DNA from: Candidatus Methylacidiphilales bacterium
GTDB lineage: Bacteria; Verrucomicrobiota; Verrucomicrobiia; Methylacidiphilales; JAAUTS01
Direction of reading: 5' to 3'
Assembly: GCA_028713655.1 (NCBI GenBank)
Contig: JAQTNW010000006.1
Location: forward strand, 1 to 37,543
Length of the DNA stretch: 37,543 bases
The translations under genes were made by a program, and so were the position numbers. Of this stretch, positions 10,059 to 21,324 are shown one piece after another; within the stretch, counting starts at the first letter, position 1, and each line of letters opens with the position of its first letter. The notes below the pieces were generated by a model. The model had not been told where the DNA came from. It saw only the letters and a list, made by a program, of their open reading frames with translations, and did not search any database.

Positions 10059-13000
10059 TTAATTCTCCCCGCCCAAGGGAGCGGGACTGTGCGGCACCAC
10101 AACACATGTCTTGCGATGGGTGCGCAGAAAGGCGAAGCGATCCAGCACATTTTCCTGGAATTCCTCAAGATACAGAAACAGCGCAGGCGTTACGAACAGC
10201 GTAATGAGTTGAGAAACCACGAGCCCCCCGGCAATGATCAATCCAAGCGGCTGGCGCGTCTTGCCGTCGGCCCCATGTCCGAACGCAAGTGGCAGCGAGC
10301 CCATGAGCGCGGCAAACGTCGTCATCATGATAGGCCGGAACCGTTCGACACAAGCCTCATGCACGGCTGCGGTACGGTCAAGCCCCTGGGCCATGCGCTG
10401 GAGGGCAAAATCAATCATCATGATACCGTTCTTTTTTACAATGCCCACGAGCAGGAACAAGCCGACATCCGCATAGAGCGAAAGCTCCTGGCCAAAGATT
10501 AGCAATGTCGCAAGACCACCGACCATTGCGACAGGCAGCGACGAGAGAACGGTGATGGGATGGACATAACTTTCGTAAAGGATACCCAGAATCACATACA
10601 TGCAGAAAATGGCCAAAAGGAAGAGAATGGCCAGACTGTTGATCGTTTCCTTGAAAACCTGCGCTTCGCCCTGCAAGCTGCCTGTCACGGTCAGTGGAAG
10701 GGTTTCAGCGGCTGTTTTTTCAAGATATTTTGTCGCATCACCGATGACCGCGTCCGGTCCAAGGTTGAAAAAAATCGTCACGGACGGGAACTGGTTGATG
10801 TGGTTGATCGACTGGGGTCCGAGCACTTCATGCCACTTCGCAACGGCTTTAATCGGCACGAGTGCTCCAGTTCCGGAACGAATGTAAAGTTTTTGGAGGT
10901 CATCCGGCCTCCCTCGTTCCTTGTCATCAATCTCAATGATGACCTGGTATTGGTCCGTCACCTTCTTGATAAGATAAATATAGTTCTGGGAATAGGCAGT
11001 CCGCAGCGCATTCAGGATGGCCTGCGCGGTGACTCCATAGCTTGACGCCTGATCCCTCAGGATATCGATCTCCAGATTCGGCGTGTTCATCTTTAAATCG
11101 GAATTGACAAATCCGCCATTCGCAATGCCTGGATAGGCTCGCAGTTTTGCAACGATATCCTCTGAAGCCTTGTAAACTTCATCCGGATTGATGCCTGTCA
11201 ACGAGTATGTGAATTTCCCCTGGGTTGTCGCAGTGGCTCCAGTGCTGATTTGCAACGTTGGGTTCGCCTGCAAGTACGGCAATATCCCGGGAATCTGCGC
11301 GATCTTCTGCGACAATCGCGCCATCACAATTTGGATCGGTGGCCGCTCATCGCGAGGCTTTAGAAAGCCGAGTGTGAAAGCCTGTGAGGGCGCCGCCAGA
11401 CCGGTTCGTCCGGCAACCGTGATGCCAATATCAACTGCGTCGTCATTTTTTAATATTTCATCCACCTGCTTTTGGTAGGCGTGCATTTGCTCGGGAGAAC
11501 TTCCTTCCTGCGCTTGAAAGATGCCTCGGATAAAACCGCTATCGCCGACTGGCAACAAGGACTTCGGCACGGCTTGAAACAATAAAATCGTACCGATCAT
11601 GCAAACAACCCAGGCGAGTGCGGAAATCCATTTGTGATTGAGAAAGAAATGCAGGGAGCCGCCGTAACCTTTGATCACCCGTCCGATGGTTTTATTGGAA
11701 ATTGTTTCCATCCATGTCTTTTTCCCCTTTTCATGCTTCACCAGCATCCTTGAGCACATCAGCGGCGTCAGCGAAAGAGAGACGATACCCGAGGCAAGAA
11801 TTGAAATAATAATCGTGACGGCAAACTCCTGCAACTGCCGGCCCAAAAGCCCGGGCATGAAAACCAGCGGAATAAACACCGCAGCCAGTGACAGGGTCAT
11901 GGATAGAATGGTAAAGCTGATTTCCTTTGCCCCGTTCAAGGACGCTTCCAAAGCCCCCTCGCCGGCTTCCATTCGCCGCACCGCATTTTCCAAAAATACA
12001 ATTGCGTCATCGACAAGGAACCCGATGGACAGCGTAAGCGCAAGAAGCGAAAGGTTGTCGATGCTGTACTTAAGTATGTACATGATCAGAAAAGTCAGCA
12101 ACATCGACAGCGGGAGCGCGACAACCGGGATGAGCGTATCGCTGGCGCGTCCTAGAAAAACGAAAATGACTATCACCACAAGCGAAAATGCCAGGAGCAG
12201 GGTTTGTTTCACGTCATTGACGGAATTTTGAACCGTAATGGAGCGGTCATAGACAGGAATAAGCTGGATTGAGCCGGGCAGTTCCCGTTTAAACAGTGGA
12301 AGCAGATTTCTGACTGACTGCGAGATGGCCACCGCATTGCTTCCCGCCTGGCGCGAAACAGCGAGCACCACGTTCACCGCCGGGATAGGATGGCCGCGTA
12401 CAAAGAAATGCCGTTCCTGGCGTTCGTCCTGGAGCGAGTCCACCACACCGGCCACATCGCGCAGGTAAATCGGCGCGCCCGTTTTCCCTCCGATGATCAG
12501 GTTTTCATAGCCGGTCGCGTTGTCGAGTTGGCCCTGTGGCTGCAGCAAAAAGGTGCGATGCGCACCGTCAAACTGCCCCGCGCCCTGGTAGCTCGTCCCA
12601 GCCTGGATTGCCTGGGCAAGATCATCCAGCGTTAGCCCGCGTATCGCAAGCTTCGCCGGATCCGCCTTGATGCGCACGGCGGACTTCGAGCCGAAAACAT
12701 CCACCCTCGAAACGCCGGGAAGAATACTGATACGTTGCGCCACCTGGCTTGTGGCATAATCGTAAAGCTGCCCGCCCGTCAGCGAGTCGCTTGTCAGTGT
12801 AAGATACATGACGGGCTGGTCATTCGGGTTGTGCTTCGCGAGCGTGGGGGGTGATGGCATATCCACCGGGAGGCTGCCCGTGGTTTGGCTGATGGCCGCC
12901 TGCACGTCCGTGGCCGCGGCATCCACACTCTTATTCAATGCAAATTGCAGAGTCAGTGCGGTGTTGCCCTGCGTGCTGTTGGATGTGATCAACTGCAGGC

Positions 13001-13229
13001 CGGGAATTTGCAGAAACTGCTTCTCCAACGGAGTGGCCACGTTGTTCGCCATCGTTTTTGGGGTTGCCCCCGGGTAGCTCGCCGTGACGCTGATGACCGG
13101 GAAATCAACCGCCGGCAGATCGTTGACCGGGAGCTTGAGATAGCAAAGCACACCGAAAAGAATCACCGACGCCGTGAGGAGCATGGTCATCACGGGACGG
13201 CGGACAAAGGGTTCGGATAGGCTGGCCAT
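10059..13229 (-). CDS. RND efflux permease, MdtC/AcrB-like (HAE1)
   Basis: A 1056-residue inner-membrane proton-driven efflux pump, full length for the family. The N-terminal motif RRPVMTMLL and the porter domain (YPGATPKTM, VATPLEKQF) match the MdtB/MdtC branch. TM4 carries the proton-relay pair Asp407-Asp408 (GFLVDDAIVFLEN), with the same numbers as AcrB, and TM10 carries the conserved Lys in VGIVKKNGIMMIDFA (about 935-950). It is the last gene of the tetR-tolC-adaptor-permease run, 2 nt after the adaptor stop. It forms a tripartite pump with those partners, exporting drugs or other amphiphiles across both membranes. The substrate cannot be read from the sequence. Confidence 0.95.
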   Translation of the reverse strand: MASLSEPFVRRPVMTMLLTASVILFGVLCYLKLPVNDLPAVDFPVISVTASYPGATPKTMANNVATPLEKQFLQIPGLQLITSNSTQGNTALTLQFALNKSVDAAATDVQAAISQTTGSLPVDMPSPPTLAKHNPNDQPVMYLTLTSDSLTGGQLYDYATSQVAQRISILPGVSRVDVFGSKSAVRIKADPAKLAIRGLTLDDLAQAIQAGTSYQGAGQFDGAHRTFLLQPQGQLDNATGYENLIIGGKTGAPIYLRDVAGVVDSLQDERQERHFFVRGHPIPAVNVVLAVSRQAGSNAVAISQSVRNLLPLFKRELPGSIQLIPVYDRSITVQNSVNDVKQTLLLAFSLVVIVIFVFLGRASDTLIPVVALPLSMLLTFLIMYILKYSIDNLSLLALTLSIGFLVDDAIVFLENAVRRMEAGEGALEASLNGAKEISFTILSMTLSLAAVFIPLVFMPGLLGRQLQEFAVTIIISILASGIVSLSLTPLMCSRMLVKHEKGKKTWMETISNKTIGRVIKGYGGSLHFFLNHKWISALAWVVCMIGTILLFQAVPKSLLPVGDSGFIRGIFQAQEGSSPEQMHAYQKQVDEILKNDDAVDIGITVAGRTGLAAPSQAFTLGFLKPRDERPPIQIVMARLSQKIAQIPGILPYLQANPTLQISTGATATTQGKFTYSLTGINPDEVYKASEDIVAKLRAYPGIANGGFVNSDLKMNTPNLEIDILRDQASSYGVTAQAILNALRTAYSQNYIYLIKKVTDQYQVIIEIDDKERGRPDDLQKLYIRSGTGALVPIKAVAKWHEVLGPQSINHINQFPSVTIFFNLGPDAVIGDATKYLEKTAAETLPLTVTGSLQGEAQVFKETINSLAILFLLAIFCMYVILGILYESYVHPITVLSSLPVAMVGGLATLLIFGQELSLYADVGLFLLVGIVKKNGIMMIDFALQRMAQGLDRTAAVHEACVERFRPIMMTTFAALMGSLPLAFGHGADGKTRQPLGLIIAGGLVVSQLITLFVTPALFLYLEEFQENVLDRFAFLRTHRKTCVVVPHSPAPLGGEN

Positions 13230-13231
13230 TT

Positions 13232-14365
13232 TTATTTCGTCGCCGCTGAGGGCATGACCTTGGCTCCGGGGGCGAGGGAAAGCTGGCCGGTCACAACCAC
13301 CATTTCACCCTGCTTGATTCCATCGCTGACCACAATCTGATCGCCCTGGCGTTGCCCGGGTTTCACGAATCGCAATTCAACCGTGTTATCCCCTTTGACA
13401 ATAAAGGCAAATGGCCCGTTGTTCCCTACCTGCACCGCCTCATACGGCACCAGCACTGCATTCTGGATGGTGTCGAGCAGGAGGCGAACATTCACAAACT
13501 GGCCAGGCCAAAAGAAATGGTCTTCGTTGTGCAATATGGCCCTGAGTTTGACCGTACCGGAACCTGTTTGCACTGCGTTATCCAAAAAGAACAGTTCGCC
13601 GCTGCGCTTTTTTTGTTCCGCCTCCGGATAATAAACTTCCACCTTAAGCGCGCCGGTTTTGAAATAATTGCGGACTTGCGGCAGATCCGTTTCCGCGACT
13701 ACAAAATCCACGTACAGCGGATCCAGCCTCTGGATGGACACCAGTGGAGTGTTGCTGTAAGCTGTCACAACTGCGCCAATATCAACCTGATGTATTCCCG
13801 CCTTGCCATCGATGGGCGAATTCATCGTACAGTACTCGAGGTTGATCTGTGCGGTTTTCAGAGCTGCACGGTCCCCCTGTACAACCGCTTCGCTGGTGGC
13901 CACGGTTGTTTTAAGATTCTCCAGGTCCTGTGCGGAGATGTAGTTTCCCTGTGCCAGTTCCTGGCTTCGCTTGAGCTGGGCTCTATTGAGCTCAAGAGTG
14001 GCTTGATCCGACAGAAGTGTGGCCTCAGCTTTATCACGAGCCGCCTCGAACAAACGTGGATCGATCGTAAAAAGCGGGTCTCCCTGCTTCAATTCGGCCC
14101 CGTCCTCGAAGTGGATTTTCGCTATGGCGCCCGACACTTGCGGCAGGATTGAAACGCTTTGAAGCGCAACACAGGTCCCGATTTCATCAATATACAGCGG
14201 AACGGGCTTGGAGACAGCCAATGCCGTCGAGACATTGACCGGGAGGCGTGGAGGCGGTACATCCGCCTTGCGTTCACAGGCCAGGGGCAACAAGGCAAAC
14301 AGCAACCCCGCGGTTCCGAAGTAAATTCCACGCACTAACATTTTTGATGGAAACTTTGTCATCAT
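13232..14365 (-). CDS. RND efflux periplasmic adaptor lipoprotein (MdtA-like)
   Basis: A 377-residue membrane fusion protein that bridges the RND permease and TolC. A lipoprotein signal ends in LLPLAC with Cys30 as the lipidation site. The barrel-sandwich (lipoyl-like) halves are SILPQVSGAIAKIHFEDGAELKQGD in sense (about 92-116) and TMNSPIDGKAGIHQVDIGAVV after the hairpin. Between them lies an alpha-helical hairpin rich in Ala, Leu and Gln. Beta-barrel and membrane-proximal domains follow (VKPGQRQGDQIVVSDGIKQGE). It starts 1 nt from the tolC stop and ends 2 nt before the permease start, so the three are surely one operon. Confidence 0.94.
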   Translation of the reverse strand: MMTKFPSKMLVRGIYFGTAGLLFALLPLACERKADVPPPRLPVNVSTALAVSKPVPLYIDEIGTCVALQSVSILPQVSGAIAKIHFEDGAELKQGDPLFTIDPRLFEAARDKAEATLLSDQATLELNRAQLKRSQELAQGNYISAQDLENLKTTVATSEAVVQGDRAALKTAQINLEYCTMNSPIDGKAGIHQVDIGAVVTAYSNTPLVSIQRLDPLYVDFVVAETDLPQVRNYFKTGALKVEVYYPEAEQKKRSGELFFLDNAVQTGSGTVKLRAILHNEDHFFWPGQFVNVRLLLDTIQNAVLVPYEAVQVGNNGPFAFIVKGDNTVELRFVKPGQRQGDQIVVSDGIKQGEMVVVTGQLSLAPGAKVMPSAATK

Positions 14366-14366
14366 T

Positions 14367-15863
14367 TTATCGGGCCGGATCTGCGGCGGTACCTGTGCTT
14401 GCGCTTTGCTGAACGGACGCCGTTGTCATGACGGAACCCGTCGCGTTGGCCAGGTTCGCAGACGCGGTAAACAGCCCTGATCGGGCTTGGGAAAGGCTGG
14501 ATTGAGCCAATGCGAGGTTGCTTTGCGCCGTCAGCAGATCGATGAGGTTTTTCAATCCGCTCCGATAGCTGATCTGGATTGAATCATAACTCTTTTGCGA
14601 GGCCTCGAGCAGCGCTTGCGCCGCGTCAACCTGCTTCGCCGAGGTTTTAAAGGCGACAAAATTGCTTACGACATCCGAAATGACTCCCAACTCGCTGGCC
14701 GCCAGATCGGCCTTTGCCGCTTCAGCGGCATGCCTGGCGGCTTTAACCTGATAGTCCCTGCCGCCTCCGTCAAACAATCCAAAACCGAACGTCAGATTCA
14801 CAGAAGCGCCGTCATCATGTCCGGAACCGTTGAAGTTTTTGTTCCCGCCGCTGACGTCTGCCTGGTAATAAGAACGCTGCAGATTGGCGCCAACCGTCAA
14901 AGCGGGCCAGCGGTTCGCTTCCGCCTGGTCCACAGCCGCCAGCTTCGACCGCCAGGCATTGTATTTGGAAGCCAGATCCGGACGCTGCTTGAAGGCCAGA
15001 TCAATCAGCTTGTCAACTTCCTCTTCCAGCACCGCCAACGAGGGGGCATTGGACGGCGGCGCCACCTCCAACTTCGTGTTGCCGGGAAGCCCCAGGCTGC
15101 CTGCCATTTGGATTTCAGCCGTGCTCAAAGCCCCGCGCGCGCTTTCCAAATTAAACTTGCTTTGCTCGACGCTCTGCTTCGCCTGCGCTTCATCCGTGCT
15201 CGTGCCCAGCCCGGCCTTCAACTTGATTTCAGTCGAACGCAGGCTTGCCTCGCTCAGGGCCAGCGCGCTTTCGGCATTTTTCACCGCGGCCTTTGCCCCA
15301 TCCAGATTGTAGTAGGCGCTCATGACCGCCAGCGTCACCGCCTGGAGCGACTTGTTGAATGTGAAATTCTGGCTGAGAAGATTAAACCGGTTTTGCTCCA
15401 CGTTTGCCTTGCGCGCGCCAAAATCCAGCAACAGGTATTGGATCTGCAACTGCGGCGTCACGCTGATTTGGTTGTTCTCCTGCGTACCCGGATAGTTTGG
15501 GGTTCCGGTATGTGAGGCCACGCCGGCCACAGCCAAATCAACTGTCGGCCAATAAGCCGCTTTTGCAACGCCAACCTGCGCGGCTGCCACATTGGCCTGC
15601 TCCCACGCCTGGGTCGTGGCGGGATTGTGTTTCAATGCTTCATCCAGCAGTTCCGGCAAGGTCCAGACTTTGGCCGGGTCTTCAAAATCTTTTGGCGCCG
15701 GGGCCGGACGCTCGGAGGACGGCAGGCCCGCGCCTTCACCCGAATACGGTTCGTTGGCGTTGGTTGGCGGTTTGCCGGCATCCCCTTTTTCAGACGCCAG
15801 CGCCGCAGCCGGCCCGATGCAGGCGGCGTAAGCCCAAAATATCAATATACAACCTCTGTGCAT
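14367..15863 (-). CDS. TolC family outer membrane efflux protein
   Basis: A 498-residue protein with a signal peptide (ending near PAAALASE), a Pro-rich linker of about 50 residues, and two related halves each rich in Ala, Gln, Leu and Ser with long helices, the OEP repeat structure. Markers are LLDEALKHNPATTQAW at the start of the first half and PALTVGANLQRSYYQ in the second. It forms the outer-membrane exit duct of the tripartite pump. The C-terminal tail is Ala/Thr/Ser-rich. It is the second gene of the operon, beginning 5 nt after the tetR stop. Confidence 0.93.
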   Translation of the reverse strand: MHRGCILIFWAYAACIGPAAALASEKGDAGKPPTNANEPYSGEGAGLPSSERPAPAPKDFEDPAKVWTLPELLDEALKHNPATTQAWEQANVAAAQVGVAKAAYWPTVDLAVAGVASHTGTPNYPGTQENNQISVTPQLQIQYLLLDFGARKANVEQNRFNLLSQNFTFNKSLQAVTLAVMSAYYNLDGAKAAVKNAESALALSEASLRSTEIKLKAGLGTSTDEAQAKQSVEQSKFNLESARGALSTAEIQMAGSLGLPGNTKLEVAPPSNAPSLAVLEEEVDKLIDLAFKQRPDLASKYNAWRSKLAAVDQAEANRWPALTVGANLQRSYYQADVSGGNKNFNGSGHDDGASVNLTFGFGLFDGGGRDYQVKAARHAAEAAKADLAASELGVISDVVSNFVAFKTSAKQVDAAQALLEASQKSYDSIQISYRSGLKNLIDLLTAQSNLALAQSSLSQARSGLFTASANLANATGSVMTTASVQQSASTGTAADPAR

Positions 15864-15868
15864 GGAGT

Positions 15869-16495
15869 TCAGGCGGTTTGAAGTTTTGCTTTGGAGGTTT
15901 TTTTTGAGGCCCTGGGATTTGCGCGGTTCGCTGATGCCGGCAGACCCAGCAGCTTTTGCAGTTCACGCTTCAGCGCCTGTTCCTGCATGGGATTGAGCGC
16001 GTAGGTGCCAAAAATATGCGACCACCAGATGCCGTCCAAAGCCGTCAACATTACAAGGGAACTCCCGACATTTTCCCCTTCCTCCTCGAATTCCTTTAAA
16101 AAACCCGCATACGTCTGGCGCGGAATGTCCATGAGACTGGGTTGATGGGTTTTGGCCGCAGCCAGGGCCACGAACAGGCGTTGCCTCCGCCGCCGGCTTT
16201 CGGGCACGTTGCTGAAATAACTGTTATAAATGGCGCGTGCTTTCCGGCAGGGACCGGGGGGAAGCGTGGCGGCATGGGCTTCGACCCGGCTCACCCACAA
16301 ATTCACGATTCGGCGCATGAGCGCCTCCAGCAAGGCGGCCTTGCTGGGGAAATGATAAAGCAATCCTCCCTTGCTCAGCTTCGAAGCCTTGGCGACCGAG
16401 TCGAGCGTGAGATGGATGGCCCCCTGTTCAAGGACGACATCCTCGGCGGCATCCAAAATTTTTTCCCGGGCTGATGGGTACACACGCTTGCTCAT
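15869..16495 (-). CDS. TetR/AcrR family transcriptional regulator
   Basis: A 208-residue DNA-binding repressor and first gene of the efflux operon. The N-terminal helix-turn-helix (about 25-55) has the family pattern ILDAAEDVVLEQGAIHLTLD followed by SVAKASKLSKGGLLYHFPSK. The C-terminal ligand-binding and dimerisation domain is divergent, as usual, and ends in a Lys/Ser-rich tail. A perfect 10-bp inverted repeat lies 11 nt upstream of the start codon, so autoregulation of the whole tetR-tolC-adaptor-permease operon by release on ligand binding is very likely. The ATG at 16493-16495 is the only start that preserves the family N-terminus. Confidence 0.93.
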   Translation of the reverse strand: MSKRVYPSAREKILDAAEDVVLEQGAIHLTLDSVAKASKLSKGGLLYHFPSKAALLEALMRRIVNLWVSRVEAHAATLPPGPCRKARAIYNSYFSNVPESRRRRQRLFVALAAAKTHQPSLMDIPRQTYAGFLKEFEEEGENVGSSLVMLTALDGIWWSHIFGTYALNPMQEQALKRELQKLLGLPASANRANPRASKKTSKAKLQTA

Positions 16496-16530: not shown

Positions 16531-16763
16531 CAAATACGTAACGTCATTAAATATTGCCAACGCGGACATCCTCCGCGCGAACCGCCAGGAAGAACTGGCT
16601 CGACTTGGAGTCACGCTGGAATAAAGTCCCCAATAAGGAGCCTGCAGCGCAGGGAATCTATCACCGGGATGGTCGGAAATTTTCCAGGAAAACTGGATTC
16701 TGCTGGAAAACAGGCAATAAAACGGGTGCAACTAAAGCTTATTACCGGGGTTTAATCACATCT

Positions 16764-17438
16764 ATGAAAAGCAAATCAAATGCTCTGCTTCTATTGGGGA
16801 TCGTTGTGTGGATGATCGGGTGTTCCAGTTCCGTGCGGGCCAATACATCCTATTCAGCGGATTATTATTTGACCACACCCGACGCGTTCCAAGGCCAAAT
16901 GGTCACGCTGGATGTCGTGAACTTGAAACCGGTGAATTTCAAGAGTCCCATCCCCGAACTTGCCTTTTTTCACATGATGACGTGGGACCGCTCCAAAGGC
17001 ATTCCAGGCGGTGAAATCATGCTGGTGGCGCCCGCAACGGACGCCCGTAACCTCATGAAAAAATATGGCGGTAAAATGCCCCGACCTGGCATGGGACCTC
17101 CTGATGTGGAAAAGTTGAAGGGGGTTTTCACACTGTCCCCAGGCGGACCCCGCCGCGGTGAAAAGCCCGGCGATGAATCATCCGGCAACAAACAGGGCCA
17201 AGCGGGCAATGACGCGGCGTCAAAGTCCACCGGCATTGAAAAGACCGGCGGAGAACCAGGCGATGACTCCAAAGGACAGCGCCCTGGCAACTGGCATGGC
17301 CCCATGCACCCGCAAATCTGGATGATTGATTATGAGGGCAAAAGCCGGGAAATCATCGAGGCGCACAAGGAAGAAATGAAGAATTTGAAAGGGGAGCAGG
17401 ACGAACCCCCTTCCGACACGGAAAAGGGAAAGCCGTAA
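16764..17438 (+). CDS. Predicted lipoprotein of unknown function
   Basis: From the ATG at 16764 the protein has 224 residues. A hydrophobic signal ends in MIGC (Cys20), a plausible lipobox, giving a lipoprotein start. The first half (about 27-110) is ordered-looking (DYYLTTPDAFQGQMVTLDVV) and begins like domains that describe a short binding fold; I do not recognise the family. The middle (about 125-180) is low-complexity, rich in Gly, Pro, Lys, Asp and Ser, and surely disordered. The end is charged (Glu/Lys). A longer frame from 16554 is open but lacks the lipoprotein start at its N-terminus and is unlikely. It is divergent from tetR and could be under the same operator. A strong terminator follows. 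Confidence 0.7.
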   Translation: MKSKSNALLLLGIVVWMIGCSSSVRANTSYSADYYLTTPDAFQGQMVTLDVVNLKPVNFKSPIPELAFFHMMTWDRSKGIPGGEIMLVAPATDARNLMKKYGGKMPRPGMGPPDVEKLKGVFTLSPGGPRRGEKPGDESSGNKQGQAGNDAASKSTGIEKTGGEPGDDSKGQRPGNWHGPMHPQIWMIDYEGKSREIIEAHKEEMKNLKGEQDEPPSDTEKGKP

Positions 17439-17472: not shown

Positions 17473-17499
17473 AAAAGCGCCGGTTCTACCGGCGCTTTT
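17473..17499. terminator. Bidirectional intrinsic terminator
   Basis: The arms AAAAGCGCCGG (17473-17483) and CCGGCGCTTTT (17489-17499) pair perfectly around a 5-nt loop, with A and T runs at the ends so that it works on both strands. It serves the lipoprotein gene (plus) and the P-type ATPase gene (minus); the last two bases also belong to the ATPase stop codon at 17498-17500. Confidence 0.88.
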
Positions 17500-20239
17500 A
17501 TGTACGCGGGGTTCTGTGCCTTAATTCTGCCTTCTGAATTCTACATTCTTCATTTTGCCCCAGCAGCCACCTGAAATAAGCCTGGCAGAATAAAATCATC
17601 CCGATGAACATCCCGGCCGTCATCGAGGCAAGCATCAACAAATAATGCCGGACCGGATCGGCCACGGCGACCCAGTTCATCACAATCCCGGAGGCCTGCA
17701 TGCCCACTAACATGCCGCCCAGGCAAAACACCGCATGCAGCCACGGATGATTAAAAAACTTCCGCCGTACCCGGCGAGGCGACACATCAATCCCAAACAA
17801 CAAAGGTATGCTCGCCAGCACCATCCCGGTTTGCATCCAGTTCCAATGCAAGGAAAGGCCGAACGCGGCATGTGGCCCGGCACAACAGGATGAGCAAAAA
17901 CCGTCCCGCACCACAGGAACAAACCCGGAGTCGGCATACCAGCCGGCCAGCATCCCCAGATTGCCAACCGCCAGCATCCCGGCATACAAAACCCAAACCG
18001 GACGTCTGGCCCATGACTTCGCCGCGAACACGAGAAAAATCCCCGCGCCGAGAAAGAGCAGGTCTGTCGTTAAAGCCCATTTGAAGCGCAACGCGCCGAG
18101 ATAGGAAATGGAAAGTCCCTGGGCAGTCATCGCCAATCCTAAAATCAAACCTGTCACTGAAATCCTTTCAACAAGCTCGTTCCAAATCAGTCCACCGATG
18201 TTGCTCAAACGCGTGAACAAGGATGCCCCATTTTCACCGACTTCCGTTTCCTCAGCTCCATCCGCTTCTTCCTGCAGGCGTTCCCCAAATCGCAACGCGC
18301 GCCAGGTCACGGTCACGCTCGAAACCAGCATCAAGACTGCCGCCGCTACGGGGTGTAAAGTTCCCGACGCCGCCAGTGAAATGCCTATCACATTGTAAAA
18401 AATGGAAATCCACAGATTCTGCCGTATGCCCCGCATGACACGGACGGCCTGCCGCCGCGCCCACGGAATCGCCCTCAAATCCGATCCAAAGAGTTGTCCG
18501 TCCGCCACCTCGCGCGTCAAGTCGGCACCCGATGCCAGGGCAATCGATGTGGTCGCGCAGGACATGGCCGCCGAATCGTTCACGCCATCGCCCACGAACA
18601 AGACCCGTTTCCCGACTGCTTCCATGTCCTCCACAAGCCGCCGTTTTTCTTCCGGCGTAAGATCGGCCCTGGCTCCCTGCAGCCCCAGCTCTTCCAGCCG
18701 TTCCATGCGGTCCCCGCTCATGACCTCAACGCGAAGGTCCATGCCTCTCAGTTCCTCCATGATCTTCTTCGAGCCAGCCCGTAAATTTTCCCGAAGCAGC
18801 GCCACGGCGGCAGCTTTGCCATCCACCGTAACATGGATTTCCATCAAGGAGCCGCCTTTAGCCCTCAAATTTTTCAAAAGCTTCGATGGACGCGCCTCTT
18901 TTTGAGCCAGGACGGAGATGTTCCCAATAGCAAGCCGGTAAGAAATACTCTTTTCCATTACAACACCACGCACTCCCGCACCCGGGATCACTTCAATCTT
19001 CTTCGCCTTTATTCCTGCTGGAATCCCAGGAGCCCAATCTTTAAACGCGCGTGCAATCGGATGCGCAGACCCGGCCTGAATGGCGCCGATCCAGCGCCTC
19101 AGTTTTTCACGCTCAAAACCGGGTTCCACGGCAAACTCAACCAATTGCAATGTGTCTTCACTGAGCGTGCCGGTTTTGTCAAAGACCACCGTATTGATCC
19201 GGGCCAGCGCCTCGATCAAATCACCGGAACACGCCACCAAGCCGCGCCGGGCAAAGGCATTGAGCGCGCTCATGATGCCAATCGGCGTCGCCATCCCCAT
19301 CGCGCAGGGGCACGCCACGACGAGTACGGCCAGACCGTTGAACAAGCCGACCACCCAACCTCGGGCCAGCGTCCAACCTATGAAAGTCGCAATGCTGATG
19401 AACAGCACTGACGGCAGGAACCAGGTTATCAAGCGGTCCGCTTCCTTTTGGATCGAAGACGGCAATTGCCGCGCTTGATCAATCCGCGCCAGCAAAAGAT
19501 CCAATTTTCTGCTTTTGCCCGAGCTCGCAGCCTCGATTACCAGCTTCTCATCCAACACAACGCTCCCGGCAAGAACCGGGTCACCGGCTTTTCGCACGAC
19601 CGGGAACGGCTCGCCCGTCATCGCGGTTTCGCGGATAAAAGCTGTTCCTTCGGCAATTCTTCCGTCAACGGGAATCCCGGAGCCGGGATAAACAACAATT
19701 TGGTCGCCGGGCCGGACATCTTCGACTGCGCACTCCGAGGCTACGCCCTCGTTGTTTAGTCTGAAGCACCGGTCGTATTGCCGCCGCAGGGATTCGGAGG
19801 ACTCAAGCGCTGCCTCGCGGCGGTTCCGGCTCACCAGAGTCCCTAACGTATAAATAGCCAGCAATATGGCCACCACCTCGTAATAGATCGCGCCCTCGCC
19901 CGTGAGGCTCGAGTGCAGCGAGGCTCCGTACGCGCCTGCGATGCCGAGCAGAAACATTTGCTCGATGACAATCCGTCCCGCCCTCAATTGCCTCCAGGCC
20001 TCGGCGGCCAATGGAAGACCGATCAGCAAAAAGACGAGCAGGGCGGAACCGGCAAGGATCGAGTGCAAAATGGTCCGCTCCATTCCCTGCGGCGGAGAGT
20101 CGTTGATCCCGAGGCTGAAGGTCATGGTCTGGCCCGCAATCAGCGCGGCAAAACCCAAACGGACCCAACCCAGAGCCCGTGCGGCATCAGTCTTGACATC
20201 GCATCCTTCTGCGGACGGATTGGAACAACAGGAGGACAT
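17498..20239 (-). CDS. Copper-type P1B ATPase with extra C-terminal membrane domain
   Basis: From the ATG at 20237-20239 the protein has 913 residues. There is no HMA domain; instead the N-terminus is Cys-rich (MSSCCSNPSAEGC). Standard parts follow: TGEP of the A-domain (208-211), the metal-site CPC (310-312) in TM6, the phosphorylation motif DKTGT (354-358), the HP motif (393-394) and GDGVND (550-555). The last core helices end near 645. A further region of about 200 residues (685-895) has five or six more membrane segments and a CSSCC motif (782-786), which I do not recognise. It starts 2 nt after ctaA, suggesting copper supply to a haem-copper oxidase (CcoI/CtpA-like role, inferred). The C-terminal tail is encoded by a microrepeat-like stretch. 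A longer frame to 20473 overlaps ctaA and is rejected. Confidence 0.88.
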   Translation of the reverse strand: MSSCCSNPSAEGCDVKTDAARALGWVRLGFAALIAGQTMTFSLGINDSPPQGMERTILHSILAGSALLVFLLIGLPLAAEAWRQLRAGRIVIEQMFLLGIAGAYGASLHSSLTGEGAIYYEVVAILLAIYTLGTLVSRNRREAALESSESLRRQYDRCFRLNNEGVASECAVEDVRPGDQIVVYPGSGIPVDGRIAEGTAFIRETAMTGEPFPVVRKAGDPVLAGSVVLDEKLVIEAASSGKSRKLDLLLARIDQARQLPSSIQKEADRLITWFLPSVLFISIATFIGWTLARGWVVGLFNGLAVLVVACPCAMGMATPIGIMSALNAFARRGLVACSGDLIEALARINTVVFDKTGTLSEDTLQLVEFAVEPGFEREKLRRWIGAIQAGSAHPIARAFKDWAPGIPAGIKAKKIEVIPGAGVRGVVMEKSISYRLAIGNISVLAQKEARPSKLLKNLRAKGGSLMEIHVTVDGKAAAVALLRENLRAGSKKIMEELRGMDLRVEVMSGDRMERLEELGLQGARADLTPEEKRRLVEDMEAVGKRVLFVGDGVNDSAAMSCATTSIALASGADLTREVADGQLFGSDLRAIPWARRQAVRVMRGIRQNLWISIFYNVIGISLAASGTLHPVAAAVLMLVSSVTVTWRALRFGERLQEEADGAEETEVGENGASLFTRLSNIGGLIWNELVERISVTGLILGLAMTAQGLSISYLGALRFKWALTTDLLFLGAGIFLVFAAKSWARRPVWVLYAGMLAVGNLGMLAGWYADSGFVPVVRDGFCSSCCAGPHAAFGLSLHWNWMQTGMVLASIPLLFGIDVSPRRVRRKFFNHPWLHAVFCLGGMLVGMQASGIVMNWVAVADPVRHYLLMLASMTAGMFIGMILFCQAYFRWLLGQNEECRIQKAELRHRTPRT

Positions 20240-20241
20240 GT

Positions 20242-21324
20242 TTAAGCTCTGTGGCCCGTCGCCCGACGCGCCTGGTGCAACAGCAGTATCACCGTGGCGA
20301 GCAGCGCCACGCCACAGGCTTGGTGCAAGACTCCGAACGCGACTGGTATATGCCCGAGTGAGTTTTTTACCGTCCAGACTCCCAGTTGAAACTGGATCAG
20401 CGCACAGACCAGTAGCAGGTGTCGTCCAAGATGATAGGCCCGGGACCCTTGCACTTTCCAGGTGGCCAGCCAATACGCTGTCGCACCAAACGCCAGCAAA
20501 GCCCCCAACAAACGGTGAACGAACTGCACTGTGGCGGGATTCTCAAAAAAATTCACCCACCAGGGGCTCCGACTCATGATGCCCAGCGGCACCCACTCTC
20601 CGTTCATGGTCGGGAAGGTGGGATAACTCAGAGCGGCATGCAGGCCCGCCATGAAGCCTCCAAAGAAAGTTTGCGCAAGCAGCAAGAGCAGCAGACCCAG
20701 TGTTACCGGAAATAGCCAGCAAGGTGGGTTTTTAATCGCGTCACGTTTGGAGGTATCGTTTTCAAACCAAAGATTCAAGGCCTGCCACAGCACATAGCCA
20801 AAGAGAGTCAGCGCCAGCAGCAAGTGAGCTGTCAGTCGGTACGGGCTGACCCAGGGTTTGTCAACCAGGCCGCTTTTGACCATAAACCATCCCATCGCGC
20901 CCTGCGCGGCTCCAAGCGCAAAAATACCCAGCAACTTCGGCAGTAATTTTTTGGAAACACACCCCTTCATCCAAAAATATAAGAGGGGGATCAGAAAAAC
21001 GAGTCCGATAGCCCGACCCCAGAGACGGTGCAGATATTCCCAGATATAAATGGATTTGAAACCCGCCAGGTCCATGTCCGGATTTAGCATGTGGTATTGG
21101 GGATATTGCTTGTAAAGATCGAAAGCCTTTTCCCATTCCTGCTCCGTCAATGGAGGAATGGCGCCGAGAATGGGTTTCCATTCCGTGATCGACAATCCGG
21201 AACCGGTCAGGCGCGTCGCGCCACCAATGACCACCATGATCCAGATCGCCGCAGCCAGGGCAAACAGCCAAAGCGCAAGCGCGCGGGTTCTGGAACGTGA
21301 GATTTCAGGGTTTGTGGTGCTCAT
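20242..21324 (-). CDS. ctaA: Heme A synthase (COX15/CtaA)
   Basis: A 360-residue integral membrane enzyme with about eight helices that oxidises the C8 methyl of heme O to the formyl of heme A for aa3-type oxidases. The four conserved heme-ligand regions are seen: EYLHRLWGR, RLTAHLLLAL, QFVHRLLGA and VLHQACGVALL. The N-terminal WIMVVIGGATRLTGSGLSI and the following EWKP are typical of the long COX15-type form. It is followed 2 nt later by the copper-type ATPase, a sensible pairing for cytochrome oxidase assembly, although no oxidase subunit lies in the window. Confidence 0.95.
   Translation of the reverse strand: MSTTNPEISRSRTRALALWLFALAAAIWIMVVIGGATRLTGSGLSITEWKPILGAIPPLTEQEWEKAFDLYKQYPQYHMLNPDMDLAGFKSIYIWEYLHRLWGRAIGLVFLIPLLYFWMKGCVSKKLLPKLLGIFALGAAQGAMGWFMVKSGLVDKPWVSPYRLTAHLLLALTLFGYVLWQALNLWFENDTSKRDAIKNPPCWLFPVTLGLLLLLLAQTFFGGFMAGLHAALSYPTFPTMNGEWVPLGIMSRSPWWVNFFENPATVQFVHRLLGALLAFGATAYWLATWKVQGSRAYHLGRHLLLVCALIQFQLGVWTVKNSLGHIPVAFGVLHQACGVALLATVILLLHQARRATGHRA

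Follow-up and report, generated by a model that had tools for sequence, protein, structure and literature searches.

A putative oxidase-linked Cu(I)-ATPase with a fused six-helix membrane domain in Verrucomicrobiota and Planctomycetota

We analyzed a stretch of 37,543 nucleotides from a Candidatus Methylacidiphilales bacterium (the window), which encodes a P-type ATPase continuing at its C-terminus into an additional membrane domain (the extension). Our preferred reading, to which we assign a probability of about 0.6, is that the protein is a CcoI-like, oxidase-dedicated Cu(I) exporter fused to a six-helix membrane domain that handles the same copper, and that this architecture belongs to Planctomycetota and Verrucomicrobiota. 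That the pump serves oxidases is well supported by gene context, and the conserved methionines and cysteines of the extension strongly suggest that this domain handles copper as well. The route of copper from the exporting pump to the copper centres of the oxidase has been worked out in part only, and least so in bacteria other than Proteobacteria. In the fusion, a candidate acceptor, relay or second copper path is covalently tied to the pump, so that this step becomes testable within one gene.

The pump and its extension

The features of the locus are as follows.

17498..20239, reverse strand: 913-aa fusion of a P1B-1-type Cu(I)-ATPase with a membrane domain at its C-terminus (open frame, family matches, homologous fusions)
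20189..20239, reverse strand: N-terminus with Cys 4, 5 and 13 instead of an HMA domain
18290..20035, reverse strand: P-type ATPase core, residues 69-650 (Pfam, NCBIfam, nearest solved sequence)
19304..19312, reverse strand: CPC motif, residues 310-312, transmembrane copper site (C310, P311 and C312 invariant in 17/17)
19166..19180, reverse strand: DKTGT phosphorylation motif, residues 354-358 (invariant in 17/17)
18317..18331, reverse strand: MLVSS, residues 637-641 (M637, S640 and S641 invariant in 17/17)
18167..18262, reverse strand: linker, residues ~660-691 (pLDDT under 50 at 664-688)
17552..18166, reverse strand: extension domain, residues 692-896, six predicted membrane helices (structure model; no family row for the window's extension)
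17882..17896, reverse strand: CSSCC cluster (residues 782-786); the loop that holds it joins extension helices 3 and 4 and is predicted to be periplasmic
17597..17977, reverse strand: span of the nine invariant Met, M755, M763, M802, M806, M843, M847, M873, M877 and M881 (23/23 rows)
20242..21324, reverse strand: ctaA (COX15/CtaA haem A synthase), 2 nt upstream of the pump (PF02628, E 1.2e-99)

The frame of 913 residues starts with MSSCCSNPSAEGC. Judged by its sequence motifs and its matches to P-type heavy-metal models, the pump is a P1B-1-type Cu(I) ATPase. The residues C310, P311 and C312, the DKTGT motif, and Y615 and N616 (also invariant in the 17 full fusions) with MxxSS make up the P1B-1 copper signature, in which Y615 and N616 together with MLVSS mark the second copper site. 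The NCBIfam heavy-metal model TIGR01525 spans residues 95-650 at 407.2 bits, above its cut-off of 346.25, and the copper model TIGR01511 scored 354.2, under its cut-off of 397. Pfam placed the two cytoplasmic ATPase parts at residues 163-332 and 348-562, and the nearest solved sequence was 3rfu, a copper efflux ATPase, over residues 69-651. The initial annotation had described a P1B ATPase with an added membrane domain, located 2 nt after ctaA and bearing N-terminal cysteines instead of an HMA domain, and we found each of these traits: the core models end at about residue 650 and are followed by the modelled six-helix extension, ctaA ends at 20242, and cysteines 4, 5 and 13 stand where Pfam gave no HMA match at E up to 10. 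However, its range of 17498-19000 covers the C-terminal half of the gene only, and the full gene occupies 17498-20239. Neither PF12156 nor an HMA N-terminal domain was detected in any of the 17 fusions at E up to 1; PF12156 was also silent in every control genome, which leaves its absence from the fusions with little weight. In most planctomycete relatives the Cys-bearing N-terminus is longer and takes the form CxxC...CCxGC.

About 250 residues lie beyond the ATPase core, as first noted together with the CSSCC cluster, which we place at residues 782-786; the predicted number of helices is six. When the extension was modelled alone, the prediction was confident (pLDDT 92.2, pTM 0.87) with the exception of the Cys loop, and the predicted helices spanned positions 4-23, 28-52, 56-79, 110-125, 141-163 and 171-201 in extension numbering. 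The full-length model was weaker (pLDDT 77.9, pTM 0.61), with pLDDT under 50 at residues 664-688, 787-796 and 821-829.

The alignment of 23 extensions, from which one fusion split over two frames (L035 in genome G001) was excluded, as it was from the trees, contained 15 invariant columns, of which nine were Met and none was His. Met accounts for 12 of the 205 residues of the window's extension, and the enrichment of invariant Met had a hypergeometric probability of 7e-10, a value that serves as a guide only because the rows are related. In the loop between helices 3 and 4, at least one Cys was present in all 23 rows and at least two in 22. The mean number of Lys and Arg residues was 1.9 and 3.0 in the two predicted cytoplasmic loops and 0.5-1.5 in the three predicted periplasmic loops. 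These charges fit an N-in/C-in topology, which would place the Cys loop outside. The nine Met are distributed over the last four helices, and their predicted depth, taken from the helix boundaries of the model and the topology rather than from coordinates, runs from the periplasmic edge (M802) through the middle of the membrane (M755, M843, M873) towards the cytosolic side (M877, M881). When the final two pairs of helices were compared one to one, hhalign gave 73% with an E of 4e-6, which is no more than suggestive of an internal repeat.

We looked for an unrelated known domain in the extension, a possibility raised at the outset, and found no convincing match. For the window's extension, neither Pfam (searched to E 10) nor NCBIfam (searched to E 1) gave a row, and 23 relatives yielded only scattered rows. 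The best of these were Zip in Pfam (E 0.016, one sequence) and the MFS transporter TsgA in NCBIfam (E 0.0048, weak, in three of the 23), both of which we read as chance. There was no MFS, Ctr or Sco row in Pfam for the 23 extensions at E up to 10, a search in which the HMMER filters drop most weak matches. The extension profile searched against PDB sequences reached a best E of 0.28, to an unrelated enzyme. Foldseek searches with the model gave no match at E 0.001 or below among 119 in the PDB and no significant match among 38 to the viral folds of BFVD, and VIA-align across 441 Foldseek-ranked chains reached at best a Z of 6.1, for 51 residues in helices 1 and 2, a result that does not imply a novel fold. 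On these searches we rejected a known domain, and the extension, with no convincing match to a curated family and no significant match to a solved fold, would merit a family entry of its own.

Distribution and descent of the fusion

A motif scan of 84,980 species returned 151 pattern matches and, among these, 26 relatives, every one titled Verrucomicrobiota or Planctomycetota. The extension and DKTGT were in one open frame at 18 of the 26 loci, and ATPase sequence preceded the extension at 24; at the remaining two (L047, L050) the contig ends too close to the extension for this to be judged. Two further loci cut by a contig end (L044, L055) still carried ATPase sequence, and at L048, L051, L059 and L062 the ATPase lay just upstream of the extension in a broken frame. 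The 18 include two near-copies (L039, L040), one locus cut at its left end (L054) and one with masked bases (L042). Among these loci no stand-alone homologue of the extension was apparent, with L047 and L050 cut too early, and there was none in plasmids; 29 pattern matches in viral contigs contained no relative. Among 60 genomes searched, the window's own included, the fusion recurred in G003 (61% identity), G014, G010, G024 and G027, while G001 carries it split over two frames. A misassembly or chimera of two genes, which the initial annotation had considered, is thus ruled out, since 18 of the 26 loci share one open frame, further genomes carry the fusion and it recurs in two phyla.

The fusion was present in at least 3 of 387 sampled Verrucomicrobiota genomes (own included) and in at least 3 of 392 Planctomycetota genomes (search centre included), counts that are lower bounds because only the 7 or 8 best first-look candidates per genome were scored. 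These numbers suggest that it is rare in both phyla. Two hits in the verrucomicrobial sample were dropped as chance: one in G241 (E 4.9e-5) falls in an Na_H_Exchanger protein, and one in G077 (E 6.9e-4) extends over 35 columns within a frame of 127 aa. Among the matches listed in a literature search, the titles and opening lines of abstracts included no paper that dealt with a fusion of this kind or with the pump in either phylum.

At two loci, the DNA of the linker between pump and extension contains an imperfect, GC-rich palindrome whose arms measure 53 and 32 nt (L059:9802-9924, L060:9706-9815); L060 reads through it in frame, and the frame of L059 shifts there. Inserts that resemble this palindrome by eye are present in the nucleotide-binding loop of L053 and L056.

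In trees of the ATPase core (51 and 68 rows, quick, midpoint-rooted; ten verrucomicrobial rows lacking the extension, with near others kept, were removed before one of them), the 22 fused pumps and one pump without the extension, that of G009, formed one group with an SH-aLRT of 100. The G009 pump was placed among the verrucomicrobial rows on a long branch, and its position is unsure. Because it falls there, one gain and one nested loss of the extension suffice. This gene (L036, 8536-10560) encodes the same kind of pump, followed by resB-resC and with oxidases in the genome, and represents a natural deletion for comparison. Since G009 keeps the pump, resB-resC and oxidases, the extension has been dispensable at least once. 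The two proteobacterial rows, FixI and CcoI, fell outside the fused clade in these quick, midpoint-rooted trees, and the fused pumps lay outside the part of the tree that holds two cueR-linked rows and SilP. In other planctomycetes, 7 of the 27 pumps examined had CCxGC and no extension; all seven fell outside the fused clade. A ccoO match lay nearby in each case, clear for six and weak for one.

Gene neighbourhood and oxidases

Gene names at these loci derive from Pfam matches of a single reference protein per gene (ResB, cytochrome c assembly, COX2 and FixO; further, cbb3 subunit III, COX1, TauE and UbiA), and other loci were compared by local tblastn. At 13 of the 15 planctomycete loci with upstream DNA (the exceptions are L048 and L062), ccoO and/or ccoP lay directly upstream of the pump, at ten of them together with ccoN. 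Unlike the cco genes, ctaA, ctaB, resB and resC were not found at planctomycete loci. Of the 14 verrucomicrobial extension loci, three had ctaA upstream (the window, L031, L035) and six had resB-resC downstream (L031-L035, L079), so that one or the other adjoined at seven; both were absent from the remaining seven (L037, L041-L045, L080), some of which have short flanks. In the DNA searched, most verrucomicrobial loci showed no cco gene, and the neighbour in the window is ctaA. In the genome G003 (L031), a single strand encodes ccoN, ccoO, ccoP, coxA, coxC, coxB, ctaA, the pump, resB and resC within 15 kb, and other frames separate some of these genes.

Several genes flank this picture. A TauE/SafE gene stands convergent after the fused pump at 13 of 17 planctomycete loci of the genome_contigs set (L047, L048, L052-L060, L062 and L063), on the far side of the extension; the copy at L057 matches PF01925. 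In the window, an RND efflux set at 10059-16495 on the reverse strand comprises an AcrB-type pump (PF00873), a membrane-fusion protein (HlyD_D23) and an outer-membrane factor (OEP) beside a TetR regulator. A frame of 294 aa at 16554-17438 on the forward strand, convergent with the pump, has a lipoprotein-like stretch and a Gly/Pro/charged tail; its only Pfam row, DUF7098 (E 0.061), was below threshold.

COX1 was present in 22 of the 23 extension-bearing genomes, and the exception was the window's own, in which coxB and a piece of coxC were nevertheless found. A contig of 7.4 kb in that genome (L078, G000:C70) begins inside coxC and carries coxB, that is, the oxidase genes are cut at the contig end. 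Because the coxC piece stands at the very start of this contig, COX1 was probably lost at the break. In none of the four sampled genomes of the same family without the fusion (G002, G004, G005 and G006, 77-92% complete) was COX1 or Sco found.

SCO1/SenC was retained in 21 of the 23 extension genomes (missing in G001 and G444), and a role of the extension as a replacement for Sco is thereby ruled out. No Cox11 was detected in the 34 genomes searched, whether or not they carry the extension; of the 14 controls, only Caulobacter gave a match. A replacement of Cox11 by the extension is accordingly not supported, and copper insertion in these bacteria probably relies on agents other than Cox11. The initial annotation had proposed a one-piece copper loader for a haem-copper oxidase. 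The assignment to an oxidase pathway is well supported, because cco genes precede the pump at 13 of 15 planctomycete loci and COX1 accompanies the extension in 22 of 23 genomes; the term one-piece lacks support in this form, as Sco persists in 21 of the 23.

Possible roles of the extension and comparison with known systems

In the reading that we prefer, the pump would move cytosolic Cu(I) to the outer face of the membrane via its CPC and YN/MxxSS sites, as its motifs and family indicate. The extension presents a predicted periplasmic Cys cluster and carries nine Met distributed over helices 3 to 6. The most plausible task for it would be to take or hold Cu(I) near the exit of the pump and then to pass it to the oxidase, directly or via Sco. 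Both the relay and the direction of transfer are our inference, drawn from the conserved residues, the predicted topology and the neighbouring genes. A counter-point to an oxidase-dedicated fusion is that other planctomycetes pair cbb3-type genes with CcoI-like pumps free of the extension. The G009 pump, the seven verrucomicrobial loci with neither ctaA nor resB-resC, the missing COX1 match in the window's genome and the place of the FixI and CcoI rows outside the fused clade also count against this reading. We tentatively extend the proposal to a new family of membrane domains that conduct Cu(I), in which the nine Met and the periplasmic Cys cluster would form a second copper path beside that of the pump itself. 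The protein would then serve the haem-copper oxidases of both phyla as a complete loader or as a relay of import and export. If this is true, a single polypeptide has two copper paths.

A fusion of an importer to an exporter, in which the Met of the extension cross the membrane and bring periplasmic copper to the cytosolic entry of the pump, would have one chain do the job of the separate CcoA importer and CcoI pump in Rhodobacter. The nine Met do range, by helix position and predicted topology, from the periplasmic edge to the cytosolic side, and the portions consulted of two papers give MxxxM in a membrane helix as a conserved Cu motif of CcoA (PMC8406296, PMC6362234). However, neither Foldseek nor VIA-align found a significant fold match to any importer, the depth of the Met was read from helix boundaries of a predicted model, and import next to export would cycle unless controlled, and we consider the idea unlikely. 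Alternatively, the extension might serve regulation or docking, sensing copper in the periplasm or holding the pump at the oxidase or Sco, and carry no copper across the membrane. This would agree with the ATPase sequence upstream at 24 of 26 loci (the other two cut) and with the single loss of the extension from a pump that was kept. Invariant Met in mid-membrane and towards the inner side are hard to square with docking alone, which makes this quite improbable.

A copper-detoxification CopA with an accidental tail is a further rival, for which the match of TIGR01525 above and of TIGR01511 below its cut-off may speak. The oxidase gene neighbours and co-occurrence count against it, as does the tree, in which the fused pumps stand apart from the two cueR-linked rows and SilP, and we consider it very improbable. 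It is scarcely credible that the extension belongs to haem or cytochrome c maturation: ctaA, resB and resC are neighbours of the pump, but the extension has no invariant His, and planctomycete loci have cco genes with none of ctaA, ctaB, resB and resC found.

The exporter with a copper-handling extension that we favour can be set beside several known systems. CTR copper channels likewise have MxxxM in a membrane helix, but are built from trimeric subunits of three helices, and none of the 23 extension sequences gave a Ctr row. The same sequences gave no Sco row, which sets the extension apart from SCO1/SenC. With the importers CcoA and CalT, as described in the portions of the sources consulted, the extension shares MxxxM in membrane helices and service to cbb3 oxidase; CcoA, however, is an MFS protein of 12 helices, whereas the extension has six predicted helices and no MFS row in Pfam.

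An engineered CcoI-SenC fusion with SenC at the C-terminus is reported to deliver Cu to the cbb3 oxidase in Rhodobacter (PMC8475189), which shows that a copper partner at the C-terminus of such a pump can work. The natural fusion resembles it in placing a putative copper-handling partner at that end. In the engineered protein, SenC is attached via its N-terminal helix, whereas the partner here comprises six predicted membrane helices, and 21 of 23 extension genomes keep their Sco genes. From CcoI/FixI, a CopA2-type P1B-1 ATPase, the fused pump differs by its extra six-helix domain, by the short Cys N-terminus in the window and by a clade separate from the sampled FixI and CcoI rows in the quick, midpoint-rooted trees. 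It shares with CcoI/FixI the motifs of the Cu(I) ATPase core, a Cys-bearing N-terminus and, at 13 of 15 planctomycete loci with upstream DNA and in G003 (L031) but not in the window, the cco neighbourhood.
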